Assembly: GCA_001919865.1 (NCBI GenBank)
Contig: MNIR01000002.1
Coordinates: forward strand, 1 to 64,000
Source of the DNA: Gemmatimonadetes bacterium 13_1_20CM_4_69_16
GTDB taxonomy: Bacteria > Gemmatimonadota > Gemmatimonadetes > Gemmatimonadales > GWC2-71-9
Reading direction: 5' to 3'
Length of the DNA stretch: 64,000 bases
Shown here piece after piece: positions 22,626-37,712 of this stretch; the first letter of the stretch is position 1; every line of letters begins with the position of its first letter. The notes below the pieces were generated by a model. The model saw only the letters and a program-made list of their open reading frames with translations, was not told the origin of the DNA and did no database searches. A program made the position numbers and the translations under genes.

Positions 22626-22685
22626 CGCGCCGGATTATCGGGCTGAGTGCGGCGGAGGGCAAGCGCCGATAGATTCAGCACGCGC

Positions 22686-25460
22686 ATGCAGCCGCCCGAC
22701 TCCGCAGACGTGCAGCGCGCCATCGGCGATCGCTACGAGCTGCTCGCTCCCGTGGGCGCCGGTGGCATGGGCTTCGTCTACAGCGCGCGCCACCGCGCGC
22801 TCGGTCACATCGTGGCGGTCAAGGTGCTGCCACCCGAGGTCGCCGCCAGCGAAATGCGGCTCAAGCGGTTCCAGCAAGAAGCCGCGCTGGCGGCGTCCCT
22901 GGCCCACCCGCATATCGTGCCCGTTTACGACTTCGGCTCGCGCGCCGGGATCACGTTTCTGATCATGCCGTTCGTGCGGGGTGTCACCTACGAGAGCGTG
23001 CTCGCGACGAGTCGCCCGCCGCTCGCGCGGGGCCTGCGCGTGGCGCGCGAGGTCGGCGCGGCGCTGGACCACGCCCACCAGCGTGGCGTGGTGCACCGCG
23101 ACGTGAAGCCGGCGAACATCCTGATCGACGAGGACTCGGGCCGCGCGCTCCTCGCGGATTTCGGCGTGGCGCACGTGGTGCGGGCGGCGAGCTCCGCGCT
23201 CACCGCGCCGGGCGTACCGATCGGCACGCCCGGCTACATGGCGCCCGAGCAGGAGGTCGGGAGCGAAGAGCTCGACGGTCGGGCGGACCTCTACTCGCTG
23301 GCCGTCGTGACCTTCGAGGCGCTCACGGGTACGCGGCCCGCCCGTGGCGCTGACCGCACCACGCTGGCGCGTTCGCTGCGCGGCGCCCGTCCGGAGGTAT
23401 CCGCAGCCGTGGCCGCGGCGCTCGTCGCCCCGCTCGCCCCTGAGCGCGACCAGCGGCCCGGGACCGTCGCGGCGTGGCTCGCGGCGGTGGACCGGGCCGG
23501 CGCGCGTCCCTGGCGACGGTGGGGCACGGCGGCGGCGACCATTGCGGTGGCGCTCGGCGGCGTCGGCTGGTACCTGTGCCGCGCCCACGTGCTCGGTATC
23601 TGCCGCCCACCGGCGGTCGTGACCGTCGCCGTGATGCCGTTCGCCAAGCTCGGAGGGGAGAGCCTGCCGGACCGACAGCTGATGGAAGTGTTCGCCCGGC
23701 GGCTGTCGGCCGCGCCCAACATCGTCGTCCTGTCCGGCGCCCGGGTCTACACGGAGGCCGTGCGCCGCTACGGGCCAGGCCCACTCAGCGACCCCGAGGC
23801 CGACTCGCTTGCCGAGTACTTCGGTGCCACGCACTTCATCCAACCGAGTCTCGTCTTCACGGGACCGCGCGTGCGGCTCACCGCCCAGCTGTACCGACGG
23901 CACGCGCGGGGCGCGCTGGGCAGCGGCGACTTGACCGGGCCGGTGGACTCACTCGCCGACCTGATGACGCCCGCTGGAGAGAAGGCGCTGCGGCCGATTC
24001 TCGGTCGCGCCGGAGGACTCGGGCCCGGGAGGACCTGCCCCGCTGGCTTCCTGGCGTGCGCGGCCTACCTCAAAGCCGACGAAGCATTCCGCCGGGGCGA
24101 CTACGAGCGGGCGGCGGCGCTTTACAACGAGGTCATCGTCCAGGCCCCCGATTTCGCCCCCGCGTACTTCGGCCGCCTCCTCGTGGTCGGCCAGACCAAC
24201 CCCAGCGAGACGACGCTGCGGCAGGCGATCACCGGCGCGCGCCGGCACTCGACCGGGCTGGAGCGGGTCGACAGCCTGCTCCTCGCCGGCTACGTGCAGC
24301 TGCTCGAACGGGGCGACGGGCAACGGGCGCTCGAGGACTTTCAGAGTGCCGCCCGCGCGGCGCCGGACCAGCCGTACGTCCACTTCATACTGGGGGAGTT
24401 CTACCTCTTCTTCGGCGCGCTGTTCGAGCAGCGTCTCACCAGCGCCCGACCGGAATTCGACAGCGTCCTCGCGCTCGATCCGAAGTTCGCCCCCGCGATC
24501 GCCAACGGCATCTCGCTCGCGCACCTGAGCGGGGAGGACGACGAGGTGCGGCGCCTCATCCAGCTGTACGCGACGATCGACACGACGTCGGTGGTCGCGG
24601 AGCTCGTCCGGATCGCCGACACGGTGATCTTCCACCCGGCGGACGCGCTGCGCGTCCTGGCGGCGCCGGCGTTGGAGCGGCGTCGCTTCCCGGTGCTCGA
24701 GTTTCTGGCCTTTCAGGCCGCGCAGTTCGCCACGCCCGCCGACAGTACGCTGAAGCAATCCGTGACACGCCGCGTCATGCGCGCGCTGGAACGGCGCGCC
24801 GCCACCGAATACGAGCGGGCGCTCGCGCTCCGGTGGGCGGTCGCGGCGCACCTGCGCGCCGGCCTCAAGGACAGCGCCCGAGCTCGGATCGCCCGGGCGA
24901 TGCCTGGCGGTGCCGCCCGGGCGGGCGATGCCTGGATCGCGCTCGCCCATGTGACGGGACTCGATTCGCTGGGCGATTGGCGCGGTGCGCTCCAGCGGCT
25001 CAGCGTCTGGGCCGGTTCGGCCGCCGGCGGCGGGGATGCGGCGGCGCACTGGATCCTCGCGCGGGCCGGCCGGGAGCGAGCCGCCCACGCGGCGGCGCTG
25101 CAGCGCCTCGCCGGTCCCGACAGCGCGCCGCTGCCCGTGAGCTTAAGCCTCGACCTGGACGCGCGCGCGCGACTGGCGGCGGCCGACACGGCAGCGGCGC
25201 TCGAGCTGTGGGGCCGCGCCACCCACCGCTACGCGGTGCTCAGCGCGCCGTGGGATCTCGTCGCCTCCCTCTGGCCGCTGCGCTTGGACCAGGCGCGCGT
25301 GGCCGTCGCGCGCGGCGACACCGCCGCCGCCGCGGCGGCGTGCGACAGCTTCGACGCCCTCGTAGGCTACGTGGACCAGGTCGCCCTGTCCGAGCGGGAG
25401 CGTGTGTGCCGTCCCCGCCGACAAGGTGAGAGCCGGCCTCAGGGGCCGGTCACCCGGTAG
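22686..25460 (+). CDS. Transmembrane Ser/Thr protein kinase with TPR-rich sensor region, copy 1
   Basis: 924 residues. The PknB-type kinase domain spans about 15-270: VGAGGMGFVY, VAVKVLPP, the catalytic HRDVKPANIL, ADFGVAHV and GYMAPEQEV. One transmembrane helix (TAAATIAVALGGVGWYLC) is near residue 285. A TolB-N-like segment follows (VTVAVMPFAKLGGESLP), then some 500 residues of TPR-like helical repeats (RGDYERAAALYNEVIVQAPDF). The repeats would be periplasmic and could sense or bind a partner. ATG at 22686 is used; the longer frame lacks homology. The gene is divergent from its BTAD-AAA partner. Its 3' end overlaps the convergent small-protein gene by 22 bp, where a CCGGCC/GGCCGG hairpin (25433-25449) may end transcription. 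Confidence 0.9.
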   Translation: MQPPDSADVQRAIGDRYELLAPVGAGGMGFVYSARHRALGHIVAVKVLPPEVAASEMRLKRFQQEAALAASLAHPHIVPVYDFGSRAGITFLIMPFVRGVTYESVLATSRPPLARGLRVAREVGAALDHAHQRGVVHRDVKPANILIDEDSGRALLADFGVAHVVRAASSALTAPGVPIGTPGYMAPEQEVGSEELDGRADLYSLAVVTFEALTGTRPARGADRTTLARSLRGARPEVSAAVAAALVAPLAPERDQRPGTVAAWLAAVDRAGARPWRRWGTAAATIAVALGGVGWYLCRAHVLGICRPPAVVTVAVMPFAKLGGESLPDRQLMEVFARRLSAAPNIVVLSGARVYTEAVRRYGPGPLSDPEADSLAEYFGATHFIQPSLVFTGPRVRLTAQLYRRHARGALGSGDLTGPVDSLADLMTPAGEKALRPILGRAGGLGPGRTCPAGFLACAAYLKADEAFRRGDYERAAALYNEVIVQAPDFAPAYFGRLLVVGQTNPSETTLRQAITGARRHSTGLERVDSLLLAGYVQLLERGDGQRALEDFQSAARAAPDQPYVHFILGEFYLFFGALFEQRLTSARPEFDSVLALDPKFAPAIANGISLAHLSGEDDEVRRLIQLYATIDTTSVVAELVRIADTVIFHPADALRVLAAPALERRRFPVLEFLAFQAAQFATPADSTLKQSVTRRVMRALERRAATEYERALALRWAVAAHLRAGLKDSARARIARAMPGGAARAGDAWIALAHVTGLDSLGDWRGALQRLSVWAGSAAGGGDAAAHWILARAGRERAAHAAALQRLAGPDSAPLPVSLSLDLDARARLAAADTAAALELWGRATHRYAVLSAPWDLVASLWPLRLDQARVAVARGDTAAAAAACDSFDALVGYVDQVALSERERVCRPRRQGESRPQGPVTR

Positions 25461-26068
25461 ACCGGATGGATCTCCCAGAGGGCACTGACCGACGCATTGC
25501 AGCGCCCGTGTGGCGGGTCGATCGTGTCGCGCCGCCGGCGACGGGAACGGTGGTTGCCGTCGAAGAACGCCGCGCCCACGATCTGTACCTCCACCGGTCG
25601 CGCGAGCGTCCCGCTCTTCGACCGCTTCCGCCCGCGCAGCACGACCGCGAGATCCGCACGCGCCTGCCGGTACACATCGCCGAACTCCGGTGGCGGGATC
25701 TCGGCCACGATGCATGAGTCACGAGGAGCATCGCGCCGATCCGTCAGCTCGATGTGCCAGTCACCGTCGTCCTTGGACGTCTCGAGCCGGCGCACCCAAC
25801 CCCGCACCGTGTAGGCGGCCAGCTCGCGCCCGGCGCGAGCGGCGCAGCGATCTCGAGCGGTGATCTCGGGTGGTTCCCAGCTCGCCAGCATGGTGGGAAT
25901 CGCGACGGGCTGCGGTGGCAGCCCCACGAGGGAGGTGTCGACCTTAGCGCTCCAGCGGTAGTGCGGCTCCCGGCACGCCTGGCCCGGCGCGGCTCTCGAC
26001 CACAGCGCGAGGCAGGCGAGAAGGGGGATGCGGCATGCCCCTGGGGGGCTAAGCGAACGCCGCTTCAC
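25439..26068 (-). CDS. Small secreted protein, unknown function
   Basis: A 209-residue protein with a basic N-terminus and a hydrophobic stretch (RIPLLACLALWSRAAPGQA) suggesting export. Four or more cysteines (CREP, DRCAARAG, SCIVAEI, RCNASV) could form disulfides. The central region (LAAYTVRGWVRRLETSKDDGDWHIELTDR) looks like a beta-barrel nucleic-acid/OB-like strand pattern, and DPPHGRCNASVSALWEIHPVYRV closes it. The same closing pattern (Trp-Glu-Ile-His-Pro-Val) is typical of a family of small secreted proteins of unknown role. It starts at GTG 26068 inside the end of the polyphosphate kinase gene (20-bp overlap), so it belongs to that operon. Confidence 0.6.
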   Translation of the reverse strand: MKRRSLSPPGACRIPLLACLALWSRAAPGQACREPHYRWSAKVDTSLVGLPPQPVAIPTMLASWEPPEITARDRCAARAGRELAAYTVRGWVRRLETSKDDGDWHIELTDRRDAPRDSCIVAEIPPPEFGDVYRQARADLAVVLRGRKRSKSGTLARPVEVQIVGAAFFDGNHRSRRRRRDTIDPPHGRCNASVSALWEIHPVYRVTGP

Positions 26069-29000
26069 CGAGACGCATCAGTCGTTCCTGCGCGCTCGCG
26101 GCGGCGCCACCGGGTGGCGCGGCGCGATGGTAGTAGCCGCCATCCGGCCCCAGCTCCCAGGCGGTGGGGTCGGCCAGCTCCGCCTCCAGAATGCGGTCGA
26201 GGCGGGTCCGGCAGCGGGCGTCCAGGATCGGAGCCGCTACCTCCACTCGACGACGCAGGTTCCGCGGTCGCCAGTCGGCCGACCCGATGTAGTAGTCGGG
26301 CGCGCCGCCATTCGCGAACGCGAAGGCGCGTCCGTGCTCGAGGAAGCGCCCGAGCACGCTGATCACGCGAATGCGCCCGGAGAGTCCTGGCACCCCTGGC
26401 CGCAGACAACAGATGCCCCGGACCAGGAGATCGACCTCCACCCCAGCCTGGGACGCGCGGTATAGCGCATGGATCACTTCGGCTTCCTCGAGGCCGTTCA
26501 ACTTAGCGCGGATGCGCCCGCCGCGTCCCGCGCGCGCATGCTCCGCCTCACGGTCGATCAAGGCGACGACGCGTGACATCATTTCCCCTGGCGCGACGAG
26601 CAGCCGACGAAACGTGACCCCGGGGGGACGCGACGACCCGGACAACTCGTTGAACAGGTCGTTGAGATCGGCGCCGAGGTCGGGGTTGGCGGTCAGCAGC
26701 CCGAAGTCCGTGTATACCGCCGCGGTCGCGGCGTTGTAGTTCCCCGTCCCGATGTGGACGTACTGCCGCACCGTGTCGCCCTCCCGGCGCACCACGAGGC
26801 CGACTTTGGCGTGGGTCTTCACATCGACCAGGCCGTACACGACGTGGATGCCGGCGCGCTCCAGCCGCTTGGCCCATTCTACGTTGCGCTCTTCGTCGAA
26901 TCGCGCCTTCAGCTCGACGAACACGAAGACTTCTTTCCCCGCCGCCGCCGCTCGAACGAGCGCGTCGACGATACGGGAGCGGCCCCCGGCCCGGTACAGC
27001 GTCAGCTTGATCGCCACCACCTCCGGGTCGTCGGCCGCCTCGACGAAGAAGCGCTCCACCGTGTCCGTAAACGAATCGTAGGGGTGGTGGAAGAGCACGT
27101 CGCTCTCGCCCACGAGATCGAAGACCGACTTCGCGGAGTCGAGGACGCGGCGTCCTTGGAAAGGGGGATACTGCAACTCGGGCCGGGCCAGGTCCGCGAT
27201 CTCAAGCAGGGCGAGCGGATCCAGCAGCCCGTCCACGTCGAACAGATCCCCTGGGCCGATCGTGCTCACGCGAGCGACGTCCTCGAACTGCAGCTCGCGC
27301 AACAGCAACCGGCGCACGTCGCCCCGCATCCCATGCTCCACTTCCAATCGTACGACGTCGCCGTAGGGGCGCCGCTGCGCTTCCTCCTCAATCACGTGCA
27401 GCAGGTTCTCGGCGCGTCGCTCGTCGAGCTCGAGATCGCCGCTGCGCGTGACACGAAAGGTGTAGGCAGCCTCGACCTCGCGCCCCCGATAGACGAGATC
27501 CAGATTGGCGCGCACCACGTCCTCAAGCGGTACCAGGCCCCGGCCGTCCGGCAGGGAAACGAGGCGCGGCAAGCCCTCCGGCAGCTTGACGTACGCGAAG
27601 TGCATCGGGCCCGTCGCGGCGTCCCGCACCAGGACCGCTAGCGACAATCGCAGGTTGGCCATCACCGGAAACGGGTGCCCTGGAGCCCGCGTGATCGCCT
27701 GCGGGGTCAACAGTGGAAAGACCTGCTCCGTGAAGTAGCGGCGGAGCACCGCCCGATCGGGCTCGCTCAGCTCGCTCCAGCGCTGCAGGCGGATGCCCTG
27801 GGCGGCGAGCTGGGGCAGACAGCCCTGGAGCAGACACTGCGTATAGCGCTCCAGCTCCGAGCGCAGACGGATGAGGATGGCATCGAGCTGCTCCTGCGCG
27901 CTGAGCCCGTCCTCGCTCGCCTCTCTGCCGCCGACCTGCAGCGCGTGCTTGAGGGCGCCGACCTGGACCATGAAGAACTCGTCGAGATTGGTGCGGAAGA
28001 TCGAGAGGAACCGGACCCGTGCCAGCAGGGGGACTGTCGCATCCTCCGCCAGCGCGAGCACCCGTCCATTGAACTCGAGCCAGCTGAGCTGGCTGCTCAG
28101 GAAGTGGTCGCTCGCGATCGATTGCTCGGCAACCGAGCGAGGCGGCTCGCGCAGGCCGGCGATGGTCCACTCGCGGGTGATCACGCCCGGCGAGAGCACC
28201 GCCATCGATTCCCGCGGCTCCCCTCCGCTGCGTCGCCCCGGGCCGCTCGGCCATTCGGGGACGAGCTCGGACCGTGCCGCGACGGTGAGCGCGGCGAGCG
28301 TGCGAGGCTCATGCAACACGGGCGCCCCCACCAGCTCCACGACCTCGGCCAACGGTACCCACTGGAGGTTCGTCCCCTCGACCGCCGCGAGGCCCTTGCC
28401 CAGGCGCCGCACGAGCCAGACCTCCAACAGGGGTCGGCCAGCGGCCGCTGGCGCCATCCCCAGCAGCCGTACCTGGCCGTCGGAGCTGCCGAAGGCCGTG
28501 CGTAACACGTAGCGGCACGCCTCCTCACCGCTCCCCCTCCGGACGGGCAGCATCAGCGTCCCACCCTCGTGCCGCAGCGCGATCTGCCCTTGTTCCAGCG
28601 CAAGCACCGCCACTTCGCGATTCTGCTGCACGGCGCGCGCGAGCCCTTCGCTCTCCAGCGCGCGGCTCAGCTTCTCCGCCCGCTCGAGCTTGCCGACCAG
28701 CAGCGGCCGCACGGCGTAGCCGTCGCGGAACGCGGTCACCAGCCGCTCGAGCCCGGGCCACCCCCGGCGCCGCGGGCGGATCTTGAGCTCCTGGAACGAG
28801 CGGGATAGCCCGCCGCCGCGCACCGTGACGACGTCGTAATACAGCTCGTAGACGGCCTCGAGCAGCCAGCGTGGCCGGCTCCGGCGCACGCGCCGCTCGG
28901 TTTCGAACTCGATCCGCGGCGCCAGCGCCGCAGGATCGATCAGTGCGCGCAGCCGGCGCGCCGGCTCGGACGTGCCCGCGAGCGCCGCCGCTCCGTCGAG

Positions 29001-29273
29001 CTCCACCACTTCGGCTTCGAACACTTCGCGCGGTCCGTCGGCGGAGCCCGGCCCCGGCGGCACCTGGAGGGTGAGGAGCCGCCGATCGTCCATGCGCGTC
29101 CTGAAGCGGCAGGTGACGCCGCGCCGCCGCAGGGTCCAGTCGGCGGCGTCGAAGTAGGCGTCCCTATGGAACAGCGTTTGGACGGGTCCCGCGCGCAGTC
29201 CGGCCGGGAGCGGCGCCGCGACGAGCCGGTTCAGCAGCTCCAGACTCGCGACCTCCCCGTAGTACTCGCGCAT
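26049..29273 (-). CDS. ppk1: CYTH-domain/polyphosphate kinase 1 fusion protein
   Basis: 1074 residues. The C-terminal 690 (from about 388) are a complete PPK1, which reversibly makes polyphosphate from ATP. Visible parts: LSWLEFNGRVLALAED, FRTNLDEFFMV, the catalytic phospho-histidine in DVKTHAKVGLVVRR, YVHIGTGNYN, FLEHGRAF with the second histidine, and GSADWRPRNLRRRVE. Residues 1-215 form a CYTH-type triphosphate-tunnel domain (AYFDAADWTLRRRGVTCRFR, LTLQVPP, RIEFETERRV, SFQELKIRPRRRG, VGKLERAEKL). Residues about 220-320 resemble a degenerate Nudix fold without the catalytic box. ATG at 29273 is used; GTG at 29282, two bases after the upstream stop, is possible. Normal PPK1 is about 690 residues. 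Confidence 0.85.
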   Translation of the reverse strand: MREYYGEVASLELLNRLVAAPLPAGLRAGPVQTLFHRDAYFDAADWTLRRRGVTCRFRTRMDDRRLLTLQVPPGPGSADGPREVFEAEVVELDGAAALAGTSEPARRLRALIDPAALAPRIEFETERRVRRSRPRWLLEAVYELYYDVVTVRGGGLSRSFQELKIRPRRRGWPGLERLVTAFRDGYAVRPLLVGKLERAEKLSRALESEGLARAVQQNREVAVLALEQGQIALRHEGGTLMLPVRRGSGEEACRYVLRTAFGSSDGQVRLLGMAPAAAGRPLLEVWLVRRLGKGLAAVEGTNLQWVPLAEVVELVGAPVLHEPRTLAALTVAARSELVPEWPSGPGRRSGGEPRESMAVLSPGVITREWTIAGLREPPRSVAEQSIASDHFLSSQLSWLEFNGRVLALAEDATVPLLARVRFLSIFRTNLDEFFMVQVGALKHALQVGGREASEDGLSAQEQLDAILIRLRSELERYTQCLLQGCLPQLAAQGIRLQRWSELSEPDRAVLRRYFTEQVFPLLTPQAITRAPGHPFPVMANLRLSLAVLVRDAATGPMHFAYVKLPEGLPRLVSLPDGRGLVPLEDVVRANLDLVYRGREVEAAYTFRVTRSGDLELDERRAENLLHVIEEEAQRRPYGDVVRLEVEHGMRGDVRRLLLRELQFEDVARVSTIGPGDLFDVDGLLDPLALLEIADLARPELQYPPFQGRRVLDSAKSVFDLVGESDVLFHHPYDSFTDTVERFFVEAADDPEVVAIKLTLYRAGGRSRIVDALVRAAAAGKEVFVFVELKARFDEERNVEWAKRLERAGIHVVYGLVDVKTHAKVGLVVRREGDTVRQYVHIGTGNYNAATAAVYTDFGLLTANPDLGADLNDLFNELSGSSRPPGVTFRRLLVAPGEMMSRVVALIDREAEHARAGRGGRIRAKLNGLEEAEVIHALYRASQAGVEVDLLVRGICCLRPGVPGLSGRIRVISVLGRFLEHGRAFAFANGGAPDYYIGSADWRPRNLRRRVEVAAPILDARCRTRLDRILEAELADPTAWELGPDGGYYHRAAPPGGAAASAQERLMRLGEAAFA

Positions 29274-29284
29274 GTCGCTCACGG

Positions 29285-31870
29285 TCAGAACGCGAACCCG
29301 GCCCGCACGTACGCGCGCGTCCCCTCCACGCTGCGGGCCGCGGCGACGCTCAGCGTGTTCGTGTGGCTCAGGAACGCGAGCCAGACACCGCCTCCGACGC
29401 CGGCGTGCCAGCGATCCGAGGTCTCCCCGGCCAGGTAGACGCGGCCGACGTCGGCCAGCCCGAACACGCCCAGCTCCTCCGGCAGGAGCGCGAAGAACCT
29501 GAGGCACGCCAAGCGGAGCTCCGCGTTACCGTACACGGCGGCATCCCCGGCGTAGCGGTGCTCGGAAAACCCGCGCACCGTCGTCGCGCCGCCGATATAG
29601 GCGGCTTCGTGGAACGGGTATCGTCCCCACACCTTCTTTCCCGCCACCCGTAGCGCGAGCGTGGGCTGGAGCGGGATCGCCGCTGTGAGATAGGCGGACG
29701 CGTCGCCGTGCGCTTCCCCGAACGGGGCAGCGACATCGTACGCCGCGGGATACCAGCTCCCGCCCAGCGTGACCAGGGCGCCCTTGCTCGGAGCCCGCGC
29801 TCGGTCGCGGGCGTCGACACGGAGCTCGGCCTGCGCGCCGGCTTGCAGAAAGTCGCGGACCCCATAGGGCGGCGACACGGCGACGAACGTCCCCGAGTCG
29901 AGGGCGGTGTGGGCGTACTTCAGGAGCGGTCCGATCGAGAAGCGGGACGCGCCGGCGCGCGCGACCAGGGAGGGTGCGATGAGATACTGCTCCTGGTGAA
30001 CCTTGTAATAGTCGTCCGACCGTGGGGCGGCGCTCTCGTTACCGACGCCGTAGAACCGCACGATCTCGATACCCGACGCCCGCAGCTCGAGGCCGGCGTC
30101 CAAGCCCCACACGACGTCGCGAAAGTCGCCGCTCACGGTCGTCCGAAAGCGCTGCGCCGCCGTCGCGTAGCTCACCCCAAAATTGAGCTGAGACTTGTAC
30201 GGGTCTTGCCGGAAGCCGTACCAGGTGCCCGTCTCGGCGACGCCGGCGACGACGCCCAAGTCCGGGGCGAACATGAGTCGCACCGCCGGACTCCAGCGGC
30301 TGCCCCAGTCGCGCAGTTGCCGCTGCGTGGGATCGGCTCGCGGTCCGGCCCGAGCGGCGCCGCGGTCGATCGACGTGCGCGGCCCGGTGATCAGCTGGGT
30401 TGGTGTACGATGGAGGTAGAAGGAGTTCCGCCCCGCACCCCGTGCCGAGTCAACGATTTCACTGTTCCCCGCCCCGGTGACGACCCGCACGGTGATGCCG
30501 CCGCGTCCCCCTCCCCGCACAACGACGCGATCATCCCCGCCGTGGAGATACAAGCGGACCTCGCTCGTCTGCTGCGGGCGGAACGTGCGCGCGTAGTAGG
30601 TTGGCCCGTTGCGCCGCGACAGCACAACCGCCACCGACCCATCCCCCCGGCGCTCGACCTCGGCGAGGTCGGCGTCGTCGGTCGCCTGGACGTCCACCAC
30701 GTCGGCCAGCAGTGCGTAATACCGATCCGACATCTCCCGCAACCGGTCGCGCCGCTGCTTGAGCGCGCGGGACAGCCGCGCCCCGTCACGCGTGTAGTAC
30801 TCGGGCGGGAGGCGTCGCGCCGCCGCGTCGATCACCGGATCCGTCAAACGGGCCTGCAGCGCCGCGGCCACTGAATCCCACACCGGCTTGTCGATGTCGG
30901 TGAGTAACCGGCGATCCAGCGCCCGACCGTTCCACGTCAGCCCCACCGCGTCAGGGTATCGGTCGCCGAAGCTCACGACGTCCGGATGGTAGTAGCGGGC
31001 GAGCCACGGGAGCAGACCGTCGACCCGCGAAAACGCTTGGTCGCGATCGCGCGGGATCGGCCGCCATACGTGGACGGCGCCCTCATCGAATCTCGCCCAG
31101 CGCCACTGGTCGGGGTGCCGGTCCCAGTCGCCCACGAAGACGTCCATCAATCGGGCCGCGAGGAAGGCCCGCGAGTCCACCCGATCCCGCGAATCCCGGG
31201 TGAGGCGGTCCCACAGCTTGGCGGTGCCCACGATCTTCTCCGCCCCCTCGAACCCGACGTCCTCCTCCGGGTCCACGGTGGGTCGCTCTTCCACCTGGCC
31301 CAGCATCCTCTTGAATTCCGGGAAGGAATCGAGTCGGGCGTCGTCCGGCATGACGAAGAGTGCGGGTTCAGCGTGGGACACGCCGGCGGCGCTCAACAAC
31401 GGGCCCACGACGAGCGCCCCAGCCGGATGGCTCGCGCTGATCTGATCCTGCAGGATCTGCTGCACGAAGGTCGCCCGCAGCTCGGGTGGCATAGCGGCGG
31501 CCACGTCCTTGTCGACCGAGCGGAAGACGTACACGCGACCGTCCGCGGCATGCAGCCGCAGCGACTTCGTCTGGCGCCCGCCGCCGCGCTTGACGGGCGT
31601 GAGCCCGCCGCCGAACCGCGACAGGTCGAGCACCTCCACCTGGATCGGCGTCGCCCACAACTCGCGATAGTGCGCACCGAGCAACGCCCGGTGCAGCCAA
31701 CCGGCGCGGTACTGTGTGCCCGCCGTCACAGTCACGACGCCCGGCGCCGCCGCGTCACGCAGCCGCGGAGCTGCCTGCCCCGCGAGCGGTCCGCACGCGA
31801 CGGTCCCCGCGGCCGCGACGAGCGCCATGCAAGCCCACGCGCTGTCGCCGCTGCTCGCCGCGGGTGTCAT
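29285..31870 (-). CDS. CotH/HipA-like kinase domain fused to Omp85-type outer-membrane barrel
   Basis: 861 residues. After an export signal (AWACMALVAAAGTVACG), residues about 90-400 carry an atypical kinase-like pattern. KSLRLHAADGRVYVFRSVD resembles the N-lobe strands, FVGDWDRHPDQWRWARF (247-261) the catalytic loop and PIPRDRDQAFSR (272-282) the metal-binding D-x-D loop, as in CotH, HipA and FAM20-type kinases. From about 505 to the end is a 16-strand-type Omp85/BamA barrel with the typical GGATTVRGFSEHRY motif and a terminal aromatic residue. The kinase part would lie in the periplasm. ATG at 31870 is 13 bases after the DUF4956 stop. Kinase activity is inferred from residues only. Confidence 0.72.
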   Translation of the reverse strand: MTPAASSGDSAWACMALVAAAGTVACGPLAGQAAPRLRDAAAPGVVTVTAGTQYRAGWLHRALLGAHYRELWATPIQVEVLDLSRFGGGLTPVKRGGGRQTKSLRLHAADGRVYVFRSVDKDVAAAMPPELRATFVQQILQDQISASHPAGALVVGPLLSAAGVSHAEPALFVMPDDARLDSFPEFKRMLGQVEERPTVDPEEDVGFEGAEKIVGTAKLWDRLTRDSRDRVDSRAFLAARLMDVFVGDWDRHPDQWRWARFDEGAVHVWRPIPRDRDQAFSRVDGLLPWLARYYHPDVVSFGDRYPDAVGLTWNGRALDRRLLTDIDKPVWDSVAAALQARLTDPVIDAAARRLPPEYYTRDGARLSRALKQRRDRLREMSDRYYALLADVVDVQATDDADLAEVERRGDGSVAVVLSRRNGPTYYARTFRPQQTSEVRLYLHGGDDRVVVRGGGRGGITVRVVTGAGNSEIVDSARGAGRNSFYLHRTPTQLITGPRTSIDRGAARAGPRADPTQRQLRDWGSRWSPAVRLMFAPDLGVVAGVAETGTWYGFRQDPYKSQLNFGVSYATAAQRFRTTVSGDFRDVVWGLDAGLELRASGIEIVRFYGVGNESAAPRSDDYYKVHQEQYLIAPSLVARAGASRFSIGPLLKYAHTALDSGTFVAVSPPYGVRDFLQAGAQAELRVDARDRARAPSKGALVTLGGSWYPAAYDVAAPFGEAHGDASAYLTAAIPLQPTLALRVAGKKVWGRYPFHEAAYIGGATTVRGFSEHRYAGDAAVYGNAELRLACLRFFALLPEELGVFGLADVGRVYLAGETSDRWHAGVGGGVWLAFLSHTNTLSVAAARSVEGTRAYVRAGFAF

Positions 31871-31883
31871 CGGTCACGCCCTG

Positions 31884-32930
31884 TTATTCGTTCCTCAGGC
31901 CGCGCAACGAGCGGTACTCGGCCGCGATCACGTGCGGGGCACCGCGCGTCTTCATCTGATCGAGCAGCGGCCCCGGGGGGGTGTCCTTGGCGAGCCGCAC
32001 GAGGTATTCGAGGGTGGACCTGCCGTCTCCCGCGGGGAGAATCTCGCGGAGCTCCCACCGTTTGGCGTGTTGGTCGAGCACCGACTGGGCGGCCTCTTGG
32101 GCCGGCTCGAGTGCGGTGACGTGCACCAACAGCAACGTATTGAACGGCTTCTTGTTGGCGCGCTCGACGATGTAGCGCTGCAGCCGATCCGATGCCGCGG
32201 CCACCTTCTCGAACTCTTCCGGCGCCAGGGCGCGCAAGAGCTCGGGATTCCCGATCACCTGGTACTCCCCCGTCTTGGCATTCGGCGCCACGATCGCCTG
32301 GCCGAGCTGGAGCCGTCCGGTGAGAGTTTGGTGCGCGTAGATGTTCCCGACGTTGAAATGCCAGAGCGTCAGCAACGTGTAGTTGAACACCAGCGACATC
32401 GCCGCCGACACGACCGGGACGAACACGCCCGCGGACATCCCGACTCCGAGGGCCAGATAGACGTAGACGACGTCCTTCGTATCCCGGAGCGTGTTGCGGA
32501 AGCGGATGGCGGCGACAATTCCGCCCAGCGCGAACGCGAGGGCGAGGCTGTTCTGCACCAGAATGAGGGTGCCGGCAATCGTCATCGGAAGGACGATGAC
32601 GGTCTGCACGACGGACTGGTCGTAGCCCCGGTGCTGCTTCGTTACCATGTACACCCACGCGGTGGGGAGCGCCAGCACCAAGGCTCCGAGCATGGACAGC
32701 GCCGTCAGCAGCCCGAGCGCCCGGAACCCGAGACTCCCGATCCCGGGCGAGGTCGCCGCCTCCTCGATCGCCTTGCTCTTGGAAACGCCGTGGATGGACG
32801 AGAGCTCTTGCGCGCGCGCGAACAGATCTCTTAACGGTGGGAACAGCGCGAGCAGCAACGCGACGGCGAGGCTCAGCAGCACGTAATAGGCCGCCAGCCG
32901 TACGAACGGGGACTTCCAGATGCGCGCCAT
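31884..32930 (-). CDS. DUF4956-domain membrane protein
   Basis: 348 residues. Four to five N-terminal transmembrane helices (from LAAYYVLLSLAVALLLALF to VFVPVVSAAMSLVFNYTLL) include the family-typical GIVAAIRFRNTLRDTKDVVYVYLALGVGMSAG, followed by a cytosolic domain of about 140 residues. In other bacteria DUF4956 proteins are found next to VTC/CYTH polyphosphate-polymerase-domain proteins and CotH-like kinases (established genomic association, function unknown). Exactly those partners follow here. It is first in a four-gene operon, 115 bp after the second BTAD-AAA gene, with a palindrome upstream. Confidence 0.85.
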   Translation of the reverse strand: MARIWKSPFVRLAAYYVLLSLAVALLLALFPPLRDLFARAQELSSIHGVSKSKAIEEAATSPGIGSLGFRALGLLTALSMLGALVLALPTAWVYMVTKQHRGYDQSVVQTVIVLPMTIAGTLILVQNSLALAFALGGIVAAIRFRNTLRDTKDVVYVYLALGVGMSAGVFVPVVSAAMSLVFNYTLLTLWHFNVGNIYAHQTLTGRLQLGQAIVAPNAKTGEYQVIGNPELLRALAPEEFEKVAAASDRLQRYIVERANKKPFNTLLLVHVTALEPAQEAAQSVLDQHAKRWELREILPAGDGRSTLEYLVRLAKDTPPGPLLDQMKTRGAPHVIAAEYRSLRGLRNE

Positions 32931-33045: not shown

Positions 33046-34932
33046 TCATCCCGGCGGGCCGGCCGCGTCGAGAATCCGCTGCCGCTGACCCGGCGTAAGC
33101 ATGTCGCGCTCCACTACCTCGCGGACGATCCCCGCCACAAACGCGTAGCCACGCGGCTCGGCGGTCAACCAGCGCTGCCACTCGAGCTCATCCAACGCCG
33201 CCGCCAGCGCGTCCGCATGGAGCGCCGAGCCGCGCTCGAGCGGGGACCTGGGCACCCGACCGCCCAGGACCGCCGCCACCGCGAGCACACGCTGCGCTCC
33301 AGCGCTCAGGCGGCGGAATCCGATCCGGATCGCCGCCACCACCGCGTCGGGGAGGTCCCCCGGGAGCGTCTGGTCCAGCGTCCGAAACGGCTCCGGCCAG
33401 GCACCGGGCGAGTCACGCAGGTCGAGGCCCGCCGCCACCGCGCGCAGCAGCTCGACCGCAAGCAGGGGGATACCCGCCGAATCGGTCGCGACGCGTCGAG
33501 TCACGCGGTCGAGCTCCACCTCGCTGTAGCCGGGGAGCGCCCAGCGCGCCAGGGCTCGCAACGCGTCGCTCGAGAGCGACTCAAGCGACACGACGGCGCC
33601 CAGGAGCTCCCGCCCGATCCGCACGCGCAGCGCATCGAGCTCGGCTCGCGGCGGCTGGGCCGTGACCGTCAAGAGCAGGAAGAGCGGTGACTGCGTGAGG
33701 TCGCGGGCGACGGCGCCGAGCGCGAGCAGCGACTCGCGGTCGAGCCATTGCGCGTCGTCCACCAGCACAACGAGCGGGTGCTCCTCCGCGACCGCGCGCA
33801 GCACTTCGCTGAGCGTCCGGCCGAGGGGCTCCGCCGGCGCGCCGCCGGCGCGGAGGGCGGCGAGGGCGGGCGGCGCCGCTCCGGCCACCCCGGGCGCCTC
33901 GAGCAACCCGCCCCGCGCGATGCCATGCAGCCCACTCCACGGTTCGTGCGAGTCCGCTTCGACCGCGCGCACCGCGACGGTCGCCGCACCTTCGAGCCGC
34001 GCGCGGTCCATCAGCTCTTCGGCGAGCCGCGTCTTCCCCGTCCCCGCGTCGCCTTCGAGGATCACAACCGCCGGGCAGCGCTTTCGCCGGCATGCGCCCC
34101 ACACCTCCAGCATCCGCTCCAGCTCCGCGGCGCGTCCCACCAGCGGCGCCCGCTGCTGTGTCGCCGCCACCTCCTCCCCGGTAGCACGGCCTGGGGGAAG
34201 TCGCCACACCCGTTCCCGCCGGATCCGCTCCGCGAGGGCCTTCGTCTCGTCAGCCGGCTCGGTGCCCATTTCCGATGAGAGGTGAGCCGCAAATGCCTGG
34301 AACTGGGCGAGCGCGCCCGCCCGATCTCCGGCGAGGGCGCAGCAGCGCATGACCGCCTGCACGGCGCGATCGGAGTCGCGCGCGAGCCCGAGCGCCCGTT
34401 GCGCCACGGCGCGCGCGGGAGCGACACTCCCCGCCCGCAGGAGCTGTTCGACGCGCTGGATGAGCGCGTCCACCGAGCGCGCGCGCCAGAATGCCCGTTC
34501 GGCCGCGATCCAGTCGTCGAGCCCGGATGCGCCCCGCACGCCGAAGCCCTCGAGGAACTCTCCGCTCACCAGCGCGGCGGCCGCTTCGTAGTCCTGTCCC
34601 GCGACGAGCGCGTCGAGCCGATCGGTGTCGAGCTCCACCGCACCGGCGCCGAGTCGCACCTGGTTGCCGTCCGACTCGAGCCCCCCCTCGCCGAGGTAGC
34701 GGCGCAGTGTGCGCACCGCCTCGTTGAGCGAGTGGCGCGCGTCCTCCTCGGGCTTGTCAGCCCACAGCAGCCCGATCAGATGCTCCCGGGTGCGGGCGCG
34801 TTTCGGCGAGCGCGCGAGGTACACGAGGAGCGCGAGGTTCTTCCGCCACAACAGCGCGGGCGGCGCCCCGGCGCCGTTCACGCTCACATCCACCGGGCCC
34901 AGCGTGCGGCAGACGATCACGCAGCCTCGCAT
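33046..34932 (-). CDS. BTAD-AAA (SARP-like) transcriptional regulator, copy 2
   Basis: A 628-residue paralogue of the 20.7-22.6 kb protein with the same order of parts. The winged-helix segment is CRTLGPVDVSVNG with LWRKNLALLVYLARSPKRARTREHLIGLLWAD. The BTAD repeats span about 95-245. Walker A is GDAGTGKTRL near 295 and Walker B is LVVLVDDAQWLD near 395. The C-terminus again ends in TPGQRQRIL, matching TPGQAKRYR of copy 1. ATG at 34932 gives the same N-terminal length as copy 1 and overlaps the kinase gene by 16 bp. Here regulator and kinase are co-transcribed. The likely target is the polyphosphate operon just downstream (inference). Confidence 0.87.
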   Translation of the reverse strand: MRGCVIVCRTLGPVDVSVNGAGAPPALLWRKNLALLVYLARSPKRARTREHLIGLLWADKPEEDARHSLNEAVRTLRRYLGEGGLESDGNQVRLGAGAVELDTDRLDALVAGQDYEAAAALVSGEFLEGFGVRGASGLDDWIAAERAFWRARSVDALIQRVEQLLRAGSVAPARAVAQRALGLARDSDRAVQAVMRCCALAGDRAGALAQFQAFAAHLSSEMGTEPADETKALAERIRRERVWRLPPGRATGEEVAATQQRAPLVGRAAELERMLEVWGACRRKRCPAVVILEGDAGTGKTRLAEELMDRARLEGAATVAVRAVEADSHEPWSGLHGIARGGLLEAPGVAGAAPPALAALRAGGAPAEPLGRTLSEVLRAVAEEHPLVVLVDDAQWLDRESLLALGAVARDLTQSPLFLLLTVTAQPPRAELDALRVRIGRELLGAVVSLESLSSDALRALARWALPGYSEVELDRVTRRVATDSAGIPLLAVELLRAVAAGLDLRDSPGAWPEPFRTLDQTLPGDLPDAVVAAIRIGFRRLSAGAQRVLAVAAVLGGRVPRSPLERGSALHADALAAALDELEWQRWLTAEPRGYAFVAGIVREVVERDMLTPGQRQRILDAAGPPG

Positions 34933-37712
34933 CGCAGAGCCGCGAGCCGTTGAGCCGCGGTGTCGGCCCGCGCGCGGTAGCGCGGCTCGCCGTCGGCCCA
35001 GAGACGCGCAACCGTACGGTAGGCGCGGCACGCTTCCTCAGACGATCCGGGGGAGCGCTCGACCAACCGGGCCAGCCGCCACTCGGCGAGTGGGGCGAAC
35101 GCCCAATCCACCTCCGCGGCCTGGGGATCTCCGGTCGGATAGCGAAACACATCTGAGTTCTCGTGCCAGATCAGCTCCGCGTGCCCGTTCGCGAGTTGCC
35201 CTGCTCGCTCAAACCACTCGGCTCGCGAGAGATGCAACACCGCGCGAAAGAAGGGGTCTTCCGTCCGTGCAGCGGGGACGCCGGCGAGGCCGTCGGTGGA
35301 CGCGAGGGCCGCGCCGTACGCGCCGCGCCGAGCTAGGGCATCGGCCTCCAACAGCCCCGCCAAGATTGGGGGTGGCTGCTCGTCGGCCAGCCGCCCGCTC
35401 GGCGGCGGATCGGCGCGAGGGGAACGCACCCGGTCGAGCACAGCCACCATCCAGGCGGCGCGCCGCCGTCGGTCTGCGGGCCCCGGCCGCTCGAACTCAT
35501 CTGCGAGGCGTGCCCGCACGCTCGGCAACTCGGCCGCCAGCCGGGCCGAATCCGCGTCGAACAGCAGCGTCGCGGCGTGCAACTCCTCGGCGAAAATCGC
35601 CAGCTCGGGAGAGCGACGAGCCAGCCGGCGAGCGAGGGCGATCGCCGTGTCGGGCCGTCCCAGGGCCACCAGGGCCAGCACCCGAGCGAGGCTCGCCGAC
35701 CGCTCGAACCCCGGCTCGTGCAGCAGTCGCTCGGCAAACACCAGCTCCCCCTGAGGAACGCCAAAAGCCCCCAGGTACCGGGCCCCGGCGTCGAGCTGAG
35801 TGACTCCCACGCGCTTTGCCTGTCGCACGAGGCCGTCTGTCCGGCGCACGGCCTCGGCGCTCGGCAAGAACCGCCACGCGTACGCGAGCTCGACGAGGGC
35901 GAGGGTAGCGAACGAGGGCGGGTCGCTCGGGTTGCCGAGCCGCTCTCGGCCCGCGAGGGCCGCCGTGGCGCGGGCCGAGTCCCCTTCGACGATGTGAACC
36001 CACGCGAGATGCTCCAGCGCGGGACCGAAAGCCGGCTGGAACTTGAGGACATCCTCGAACGGTGCCAGTGCCTCGCGCCGCGAGCGCCCCACCAGCGGCC
36101 CGCGGTGCAGCAGCTCGTCACCGCGCCGGAATTGGCCGAACAGGAAGTCTCTCCAGCGCCGCGTCAGCCCGTCGAGCGAGTCCAGGCGCGCCGCGAGCGG
36201 CAGCTGTTGCGCGCGTATCAATCGCTGGTAAGGAAGCGGGAACGCGTCGACATGGGCGAGGTAGTGATTGTCGCGCGGGTCGTCCTCAAGGTCGAGCCAC
36301 CGACCCACCTCCGCGTGGCGGAGGTAGCAGAGCCAACAGGTCGAGTCGATAGCGCTGGCGGCAGCGTAGGCCGCGCGGGCCTCGGCCCAGCGGGCTTCCG
36401 CGAACAACCGCTCCGCTCTACGGAAGGCGAGGAGCCCTGGCTGTGTCTTGGGCAGCACCGCCGCTGGCAGCGAGCGATCGAGCAGTTTGGGAGTCCCCAG
36501 CATCGACCCGAACACACGATCGGCCAGGTCCGCGATCAACACGGGCCATTGTTCCGCACGCCCCCGCACGTCGATCGTGTCCAGTCCCGGCACTGCGCTC
36601 GCCACGCGAAGTCGCACGCCGCCGCCGCTCTGCTCGATGTCCACCGCGAGATGCGACGCGCGATGGAAGTACCGCGCGAATCCGGAGCCGCAGTCGGCCG
36701 ACAGCGCGGGGTAGCGGTCGAGGTCCCGGGCCAGTCCGCACGCGACGGAATCGGCGAGCCAGGGCGCCAGCCCCGGTATCGAGCTCGCCGCCCCGACCTC
36801 CAGTCGCACCGTCGTGGGCGGCGCCGTCCACAAGACCACGATCGCCATCCCCGCCAAGGTACAGCCCACCGCCACGCCGATCGTGTTGCGCCGATACCGC
36901 CAGACGCGCGTGCGCCACAGCGCGTGGCGGAACGACGCAGCGTCAGGCCACCGGTCCGCGGGATCCCGCTCGAGGGCCAGCCGCAGCACGCGCGCGACGT
37001 GGCCCGGCACGCCCTGCCACACGCGGTGCGATCCCTCCCGCTGCGCCTCGAACCAGTGCCGACCGGTGAACGCCTCGTAGATGACCATCCCCGCGGCGTA
37101 CAGATCCGTCCGCTCGGTGACCTCGTCGCCCGCTGCCTGCTCGGGGGGCATGTAGTCCAGCGTGCCGATGACGGTCCCCGGCTGCGTGACCGGAAGCGCG
37201 TCGTCAGCGCCACGCCCCGCGGTGGCCTGCCGCTTCGCTATTCCGAAGTCCACCAGCACAGCACGCTCACCCACCAGGAACACGTTCGCGGGCTTGACGT
37301 CCCGATGCACGACTCCGCGGCGATGGGCGGCCTCGAGCGCGTCGAGCAGGTCCCGGCCGAGCTTCAAGGCGCGTGCGGGGGGGAGCGGGCCCCTCACCAG
37401 CCCATCCGCCACCGTCTCGCCCACGAGGAAGTCCATCACGTAATACGGCATCCCCTCCGCCTCATCGGCGTCGTGGATCGGGACGATGTTCGGATGGCTG
37501 AAGCTTGCGAGGGTCTGAGCTTCCTGCCGGAAGCGCTCCGCCGCTTGTGCCGTGTAGAGTTCCGGACGGATGATCTTGACCGCCACCAGCCGGTCCAGGG
37601 CGCGCTGCCGGGCGAGAAACACCGTCCCCATGCCGCCGCTCGCGAGCACGCGTTCGACGTCATAGCCCTTCGGCGCCAGAGCGGCGCGCACCCGCTCCAA
37701 CCACGTTGTCAT
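34917..37712 (-). CDS. Transmembrane Ser/Thr protein kinase with TPR-like region, copy 2
   Basis: 931 residues. The kinase domain spans about 15-280 with LASGGMGTVF, LVAVKIIRPE, HRDVKPANVF, LVDFGIAKR and GTLDYMPPEQAAG (PPE in place of the usual APE). A transmembrane helix (GVAVGCTLAGMAIVVLW) is near residue 300. The periplasmic part has paired cysteines in DSVACGLARDL and SADCGSGFARY, and many TPR-like helices (AERLFAEARWAEARAAYAAAS). The architecture equals that of copy 1 but sequence divergence is large. The gene is first in a two-gene operon with its BTAD-AAA regulator. A phosphorylation-coupled regulator pair is the natural reading. Confidence 0.9.
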   Translation of the reverse strand: MTTWLERVRAALAPKGYDVERVLASGGMGTVFLARQRALDRLVAVKIIRPELYTAQAAERFRQEAQTLASFSHPNIVPIHDADEAEGMPYYVMDFLVGETVADGLVRGPLPPARALKLGRDLLDALEAAHRRGVVHRDVKPANVFLVGERAVLVDFGIAKRQATAGRGADDALPVTQPGTVIGTLDYMPPEQAAGDEVTERTDLYAAGMVIYEAFTGRHWFEAQREGSHRVWQGVPGHVARVLRLALERDPADRWPDAASFRHALWRTRVWRYRRNTIGVAVGCTLAGMAIVVLWTAPPTTVRLEVGAASSIPGLAPWLADSVACGLARDLDRYPALSADCGSGFARYFHRASHLAVDIEQSGGGVRLRVASAVPGLDTIDVRGRAEQWPVLIADLADRVFGSMLGTPKLLDRSLPAAVLPKTQPGLLAFRRAERLFAEARWAEARAAYAAASAIDSTCWLCYLRHAEVGRWLDLEDDPRDNHYLAHVDAFPLPYQRLIRAQQLPLAARLDSLDGLTRRWRDFLFGQFRRGDELLHRGPLVGRSRREALAPFEDVLKFQPAFGPALEHLAWVHIVEGDSARATAALAGRERLGNPSDPPSFATLALVELAYAWRFLPSAEAVRRTDGLVRQAKRVGVTQLDAGARYLGAFGVPQGELVFAERLLHEPGFERSASLARVLALVALGRPDTAIALARRLARRSPELAIFAEELHAATLLFDADSARLAAELPSVRARLADEFERPGPADRRRRAAWMVAVLDRVRSPRADPPPSGRLADEQPPPILAGLLEADALARRGAYGAALASTDGLAGVPAARTEDPFFRAVLHLSRAEWFERAGQLANGHAELIWHENSDVFRYPTGDPQAAEVDWAFAPLAEWRLARLVERSPGSSEEACRAYRTVARLWADGEPRYRARADTAAQRLAALRCEAA

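Follow-up and report, generated by a model that had tools for sequence, protein, structure and literature searches.

A kinase-fold domain joined to an Omp85 barrel and encoded in an operon with CYTH-PPK1 and DUF4956 genes

The 64,000-nucleotide stretch of DNA analyzed here (the window) encodes a protein, which we call kinase-Omp85, in which a kinase-fold domain, a linker of beta strands and an Omp85 barrel form one chain (Table 1). A kinase-like domain on an Omp85 barrel had previously gone unlabelled. We propose, with a probability of roughly 0.6, that kinase-Omp85 is a phosphotransferase anchored in the outer membrane and acting with the products of its operon. The reading rests on confident kinase-fold models whose only PDB matches at E ≤ 0.001 are CtkA and CotH, on active-site residues that are invariant across phyla, on the recurrence of PPK1 and DUF4956 as neighbors together with fused DUF4956-PPK1 genes, on a family profile that weakly ranks CtkA first in the PDB, and on a barrel recognized by both Pfam and structure. 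The location of the protein, its catalysis, an envelope substrate and the coupling to the membrane are the parts of the explanation that we infer.

Table 1. Genes of the operon and features of the kinase-Omp85 protein, in window coordinates
Feature	Position	Strand	Basis or remark
DUF4956 membrane protein, 348 aa, first operon gene	31884..32930	-	PF16316, E 3.8e-10; four hydrophobic stretches
Kinase-Omp85 gene, 861 aa, ATG start	29285..31870	-	Stop codon 29285-29287
Signal-peptide-like N-terminus, residues 1 to ~33	31772..31870	-	Single hydrophobic segment, residues 11-31
Kinase-fold domain, residues ~45-390	30701..31738	-	AlphaFold2 and Foldseek
Gly-rich loop GGGRQT, residues 96-101	31568..31585	-	Between strands 90-96 and 103-108 (model); conservation
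K121, putative nucleotide/phosphate-binding Lys	31508..31510	-	After strand 113-118; 79/79 relatives
Catalytic-loop motif GDWDRHPDQW, residues 247-256	31103..31132	-	Conservation; aligned with CtkA GNFDRHNGNW
Metal-loop motif PIPRDRDQAF, residues 271-280	31031..31060	-	Conservation; in register with CotH PWDxNxA
Beta-strand linker, residues 391-502	30365..30700	-	Secondary structure, full-length model
Omp85 barrel, 16 strands, residues 524-861	29288..30301	-	Pfam, full-length model, Foldseek
VRGF motif, Omp85 L6 loop, residues 765-768	29567..29578	-	Sequence position
CYTH-PPK1, probable ATG start 29273	26049..29273	-	Frame open up to 29507; CYTH E 1.6e-5, all four PPK1 domains

The sequence-only reading had placed a kinase-like domain of the CotH/HipA/FAM20 type in front of the barrel, and structure prediction, the check that had been set to refute it, upholds the fold: residues ~45-390 are predicted to form a kinase fold that matches CtkA, which is HipA-like, and CotH. 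The AlphaFold2 model of this domain, built with 37 relatives, has a mean pLDDT of 88.2 and a pTM of 0.86. A Foldseek search of the PDB with the model returned nine matches at E ≤ 0.001, namely seven CtkA chains (best E 3.9e-6, probability 1.00) and a pair of CotH chains from Bacillus cereus (best 5jda, E 6.4e-4, probability 0.99). Behind them, at weaker E-values, came Rio2, HipT (probability 0.99), PI4KII-alpha and Fam20, the last as the Fam20C/Fam20A complex (E 0.068, probability 0.87). The TM-scores by target, 0.51-0.56 for CtkA and 0.34 for CotH, are modest and count against the kinase reading; they put the relation to these two proteins at the level of a superfamily.

Assignment to the three named families by sequence, however, did not hold. 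Residues 1-390 of the window protein were unmatched in Pfam even at E 10; the kinase domain had no significant match to Pfam or NCBIfam in the window protein, or to Pfam in sets of 37 and 79 relatives. The CotH profile (PF08757) left the window protein unmatched at E 10, did not recognize it at the Pfam curated cut-off, and among the relatives reached no better than E about 0.2, in two of the 37 and two of the 79. HipA_C of Pfam was unmatched in all 37 and all 79 members, and the Pfam FAM20 profile found no match among the same relatives. An hhalign comparison with the CotH alignment was likewise not significant (P 0.026 and 0.054); the stretch it aligned is collinear over the catalytic region, with both loops in register. 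Because none of these profiles matches the window protein and the hhalign result is not significant, we assign the domain to a new family within the atypical-kinase superfamily and not to CotH. It probably works as CotH or CtkA does. When the profile of the 79 relatives was compared with the PDB, CtkA of Helicobacter pylori ranked first at an E-value of 0.58, which is insignificant alone, with GDWDRHxDQW aligned to the corresponding loop of CtkA. This protein is both the best structural match and alike in its catalytic loop; it differs in having no significant sequence similarity to the window protein and no barrel, and to our knowledge it is not part of a comparable operon. A phmmer search of the PDB with the single sequence gave a photosystem protein as its sole match, which we judged to be chance. 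That no known kinase family is significantly similar in sequence counts against our explanation.

Conservation of the active site was measured in a non-redundant set of 79 domains drawn from several phyla. All 79 share R117, K121, D142, R240, D243, D248, D275 and D277; Q255 is present in 75 (with asparagine in the remaining four) and D250 in 74 (glycine in four, asparagine in one). Judged from these sequences, the Gly-rich loop (96-98), K121, the acidic helix residue D142, DRH (250-252), the Asn/Gln at 255 and DxD (275-277) are what a catalytic kinase needs. The two motifs had been said to be spaced like catalytic and metal-binding loops, and so they are: D250 and D275 lie 25 residues apart, as do D193 and D218 of CotH (numbered on the first of 18 aligned true CotH sequences), and the motifs are conserved beyond chance. 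The numbering D250/D275 was also right, with GDWDRH running from 247 and PIPRDRDQAF from 271. From the analogy with CtkA and CotH, D250 is expected to be the catalytic base, with D248 as a candidate too, since it is the more conserved and five members do not have D250. Replacement of the expected base in these five of the 79 relatives counts against our explanation. Natural D250G variants are found in Chitinophagaceae and Hymenobacter (L127, L129, L130 and L156), with the other catalytic residues all kept.

The missing D250 would also fit a pseudokinase, the kinase fold serving as the client-binding module of an Omp85 insertase in place of POTRA domains. The domain does lie where POTRA is normally found, and the motifs are lost in two distant relatives (L062 and L067) that, from their sequences, look like pseudokinases. 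A scaffold of this kind would nevertheless have no need for K121, D142, D248, D275 and D277, each present in 79 of 79 relatives, and we give this account only a slim chance.

The Omp85 barrel with its VRGF motif, also part of the sequence-only reading, was confirmed. It is the sole region of the window protein matched by Pfam (Omp85 E 3.3e-5, ShlB E 1.7e-6), and the full-length AlphaFold2 model (61 relatives, pLDDT 90.4, pTM 0.87) matched TamA/BamA in Foldseek at E about 5e-11; R766 of the VRGF motif, which begins at 765, is invariant in 61 relatives. In the full-length model the kinase domain spans about 45-390, the linker (391-502) is made up of some 11 short strands, and the barrel is built from 16 strands at 524-857. 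Turns of the GGDD and GxGN-like kind in the linker suggest that it may be a short beta-solenoid. Of the features that mark the Omp85 superfamily, the 16-strand C-terminal barrel and the L6 VRGF/Y motif are present and POTRA is absent, both from the Pfam matches of the window protein and from the secondary structure of the full-length model. Some recognized Omp85 subfamilies are also without POTRA (PMC4104836). From the signal-like N-terminus and the barrel we infer export to the outer membrane, where the kinase domain would face the periplasm, as N-terminal domains of Omp85 proteins generally do. Hydrophobic N-terminal segments with Ala-x-Ala-like ends also occur in kinase-Omp85 relatives. Three genomes of the same genus hold orthologues that are 79-80% identical. 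Barrel-only paralogues without the kinase domain exist as well (L063:7015-8262 on G000:C17, L064, L066 and L070), with 46-48% identity to the window barrel.

The operon runs from the DUF4956 gene through kinase-Omp85 to CYTH-PPK1, the genes lying about 13 and 11 bases apart; a promoter scan restricted to the sigma-70 type found none against 0.2 expected. The next gene had been called a polyphosphate gene, and it is indeed a PPK1, with a CYTH domain at its N-terminus. It carries KTHAKV and LEHGRAF, which we take to be the PPK1 catalytic-histidine motifs, and is predicted to be cytoplasmic, its sequence having no export signal and no hydrophobic or membrane segment. Since another PPK1 is encoded elsewhere in the window's genome, the copy in the operon seems to be a dedicated one. 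The window gene and the CYTH-PPK1 fusions at L031-L036, L039 and L046 share, between the CYTH and PPK1 parts, a conserved region of ~170 aa that has no assigned family.

The suggested link between the kinase-Omp85 and polyphosphate genes recurs across phyla. Within the window's order, DUF4956 is a neighbor of the kinase gene at 14 of 26 loci and PPK1 at 8 of 26; for the remainder of the class the figures are 7 of 20 and 5 of 20, and in other genomes PPK1 is nearby at 23 of 66. Each occurs about once per genome of ~3 Mb, so that ~0.5% would be expected by chance; binomial probabilities at a 1% background range from 1e-6 to 1e-29 and are overstated, as the loci are not independent. The neighbors are on the same strand in Gemmatimonadota and convergent in Ignavibacteria and Hymenobacter, and because the order differs between phyla we regard the association as a repeated one. 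Many family members have neither gene nearby, which counts against our explanation. At four loci DUF4956 and PPK1 are a single open reading frame (L209:7929-10754, L210:6960-9899, L211:7130-10087 and L212:4699-7512; Pfam was run on one), and in three of these four genomes a further, unfused PPK1 lies about 2 kb from the fusion. Such fusions connect the making of polyphosphate with a membrane protein and, as gene-sequence data, are strong evidence that the two work together.

These neighbors and fusions would also suit a machine for polyphosphate secretion or handling. In it, PPK1 and DUF4956 would push polyphosphate across the inner membrane, the Omp85 protein would serve as a portal in the outer membrane, and the kinase-fold domain would bind the chain, cap it or trim it and phosphorylate no other molecule. 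The metallophosphoesterase that Bacteroidota relatives carry in the same chain (see below) would be in keeping with such a machine too. The family, however, keeps the full catalytic set, more than binding needs, several members lie far from any PPK1 or DUF4956 gene, and we know of no Omp85 barrel that acts as a polyphosphate pore; we consider such a machine doubtful, with some chance of being right.

A parallel gene set lends the kinase reading independent support from genomic context. In Gram-positive bacteria, CotH, a polyphosphate polymerase and DUF4956 form a contiguous set (PMC7112168), which resembles the window operon in its kinase fold, in the 25-residue spacing of the loops and in the partnership with DUF4956 and a polyphosphate-making enzyme. 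It differs in that the polymerase is of the VTC type where the window has CYTH-PPK1, and in that the window domain falls outside the CotH profile and is joined to an outer-membrane barrel. One relative of the window's family (G020) has VTC, DUF4956 and CotH together (L208:125-6042), a Gram-positive module in a Gram-negative phylum, and elsewhere in the same genome (L039) a kinase-Omp85 gene adjoins CYTH-PPK1. Given the published set and these two loci, kinase-Omp85 by analogy holds the position of CotH in a parallel module.

On the phosphotransferase reading, the exported HipA/CotH/FAM20-type kinase domain would hang into the periplasm from a barrel that has no POTRA, with Q255 and D275/D277 holding a divalent metal and D250 (or D248) acting as the base, and would phosphorylate a protein or polymer of the envelope as this meets or passes the barrel. 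CYTH-PPK1 would make or handle polyphosphate in the cytoplasm, DUF4956 would couple the system to the inner membrane, and the three proteins would act as one unit. Few enzymes that phosphorylate outside the cytoplasm of Gram-negative bacteria are known to us, and we know of no agreed phosphate donor for them. A conserved kinase domain that is joined to a barrel of the outer membrane and occurs in hundreds of species is a defined candidate enzyme, and its operon points to a candidate donor system.

As far as we know, no free ATP should be available in the periplasm, which counts against a phosphotransferase there. Polyphosphate, if it were the donor, would solve this problem: CYTH-PPK1 and DUF4956 would make polyphosphate and extrude it through the inner membrane for kinase-Omp85 to use. 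Since PPK1 is predicted to be cytoplasmic, the polymer would have to cross that membrane, by way of DUF4956. Yeast VTC moves polyphosphate across a membrane into the vacuole. We hold this particular donor to be unlikely. The domain might instead transfer another group, since some kinase-fold enzymes have been reused in this way, for example to transfer AMP, and the D-x-D and Gln variants of the catalytic loop are unusual. CtkA and CotH, however, the solved structures closest to the domain, both belong to enzymes that transfer phosphate, and we consider this account very improbable.

A pattern scan of GTDB genomes gave at least 584 confirmed relatives of kinase-Omp85, mainly in Gemmatimonadota, Ignavibacteria and Bacteroidota, with 60 of 200 genomes of the window's phylum carrying one and cultured Hymenobacter and Pedobacter among the carriers. 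The 80 matches listed come from Gemmatimonadota, Ignavibacteria, Chlorobi, Bacteroidota and Calditrichota; among them are also single MAGs assigned to Acidobacteriota, Deltaproteobacteria and Actinobacteria, for which binning errors could account. Most Bacteroidota frames are about 1200-1300 aa long; in several members tested, the roughly 400 extra N-terminal residues are a calcineurin-like metallophosphoesterase (PF00149). These Bacteroidota relatives, with PF00149, kinase domain and Omp85 barrel, have the 'Metallo' architecture already described for Omp85 proteins by Heinz and Lithgow (PMC4104836), from which the window protein differs in having no PF00149 match in Pfam. The word "kinase" is absent from the main text of that survey, which terms PF00149 a metalloprotease where Pfam has a calcineurin-like phosphoesterase. 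The domain missing from this catalogued subfamily can now be assigned, with kinase and phosphatase domains in a single chain. PlpD-type patatin-Omp85 proteins (PMC4104836; PMC11116518) also carry an enzyme domain on an Omp85 barrel; theirs is a patatin lipase with POTRA, in contrast to the kinase fold without POTRA of the window protein.

Several variant arrangements were seen. In Pontibacter ramchanderi (L145) the kinase and the barrel are in separate adjacent frames, and tandem duplicates of kinase-Omp85 occur at L031, L032, L059 and L089. One frame from a relative of the window's family (L069:1451-4582) has no barrel, and membrane segments at its N-terminus precede a metallophosphoesterase-like region and the kinase domain; its weak match to CHAD, a polyphosphate-binding domain, was rejected, the stretch being metallophosphoesterase-like (GDLVYPSG, TGNHD, GGHDH). 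Long upstream frames at L188, L193 and L205 suggested DUF4956-kinase fusions and proved to be overlapping frames. In the window itself, large Hanks-type Ser/Thr kinases are encoded on both sides of the operon (22647-25460 on the plus strand and 34917-37712 on the minus strand), and a BTAD/AAA_16 regulator at 33046-35031.
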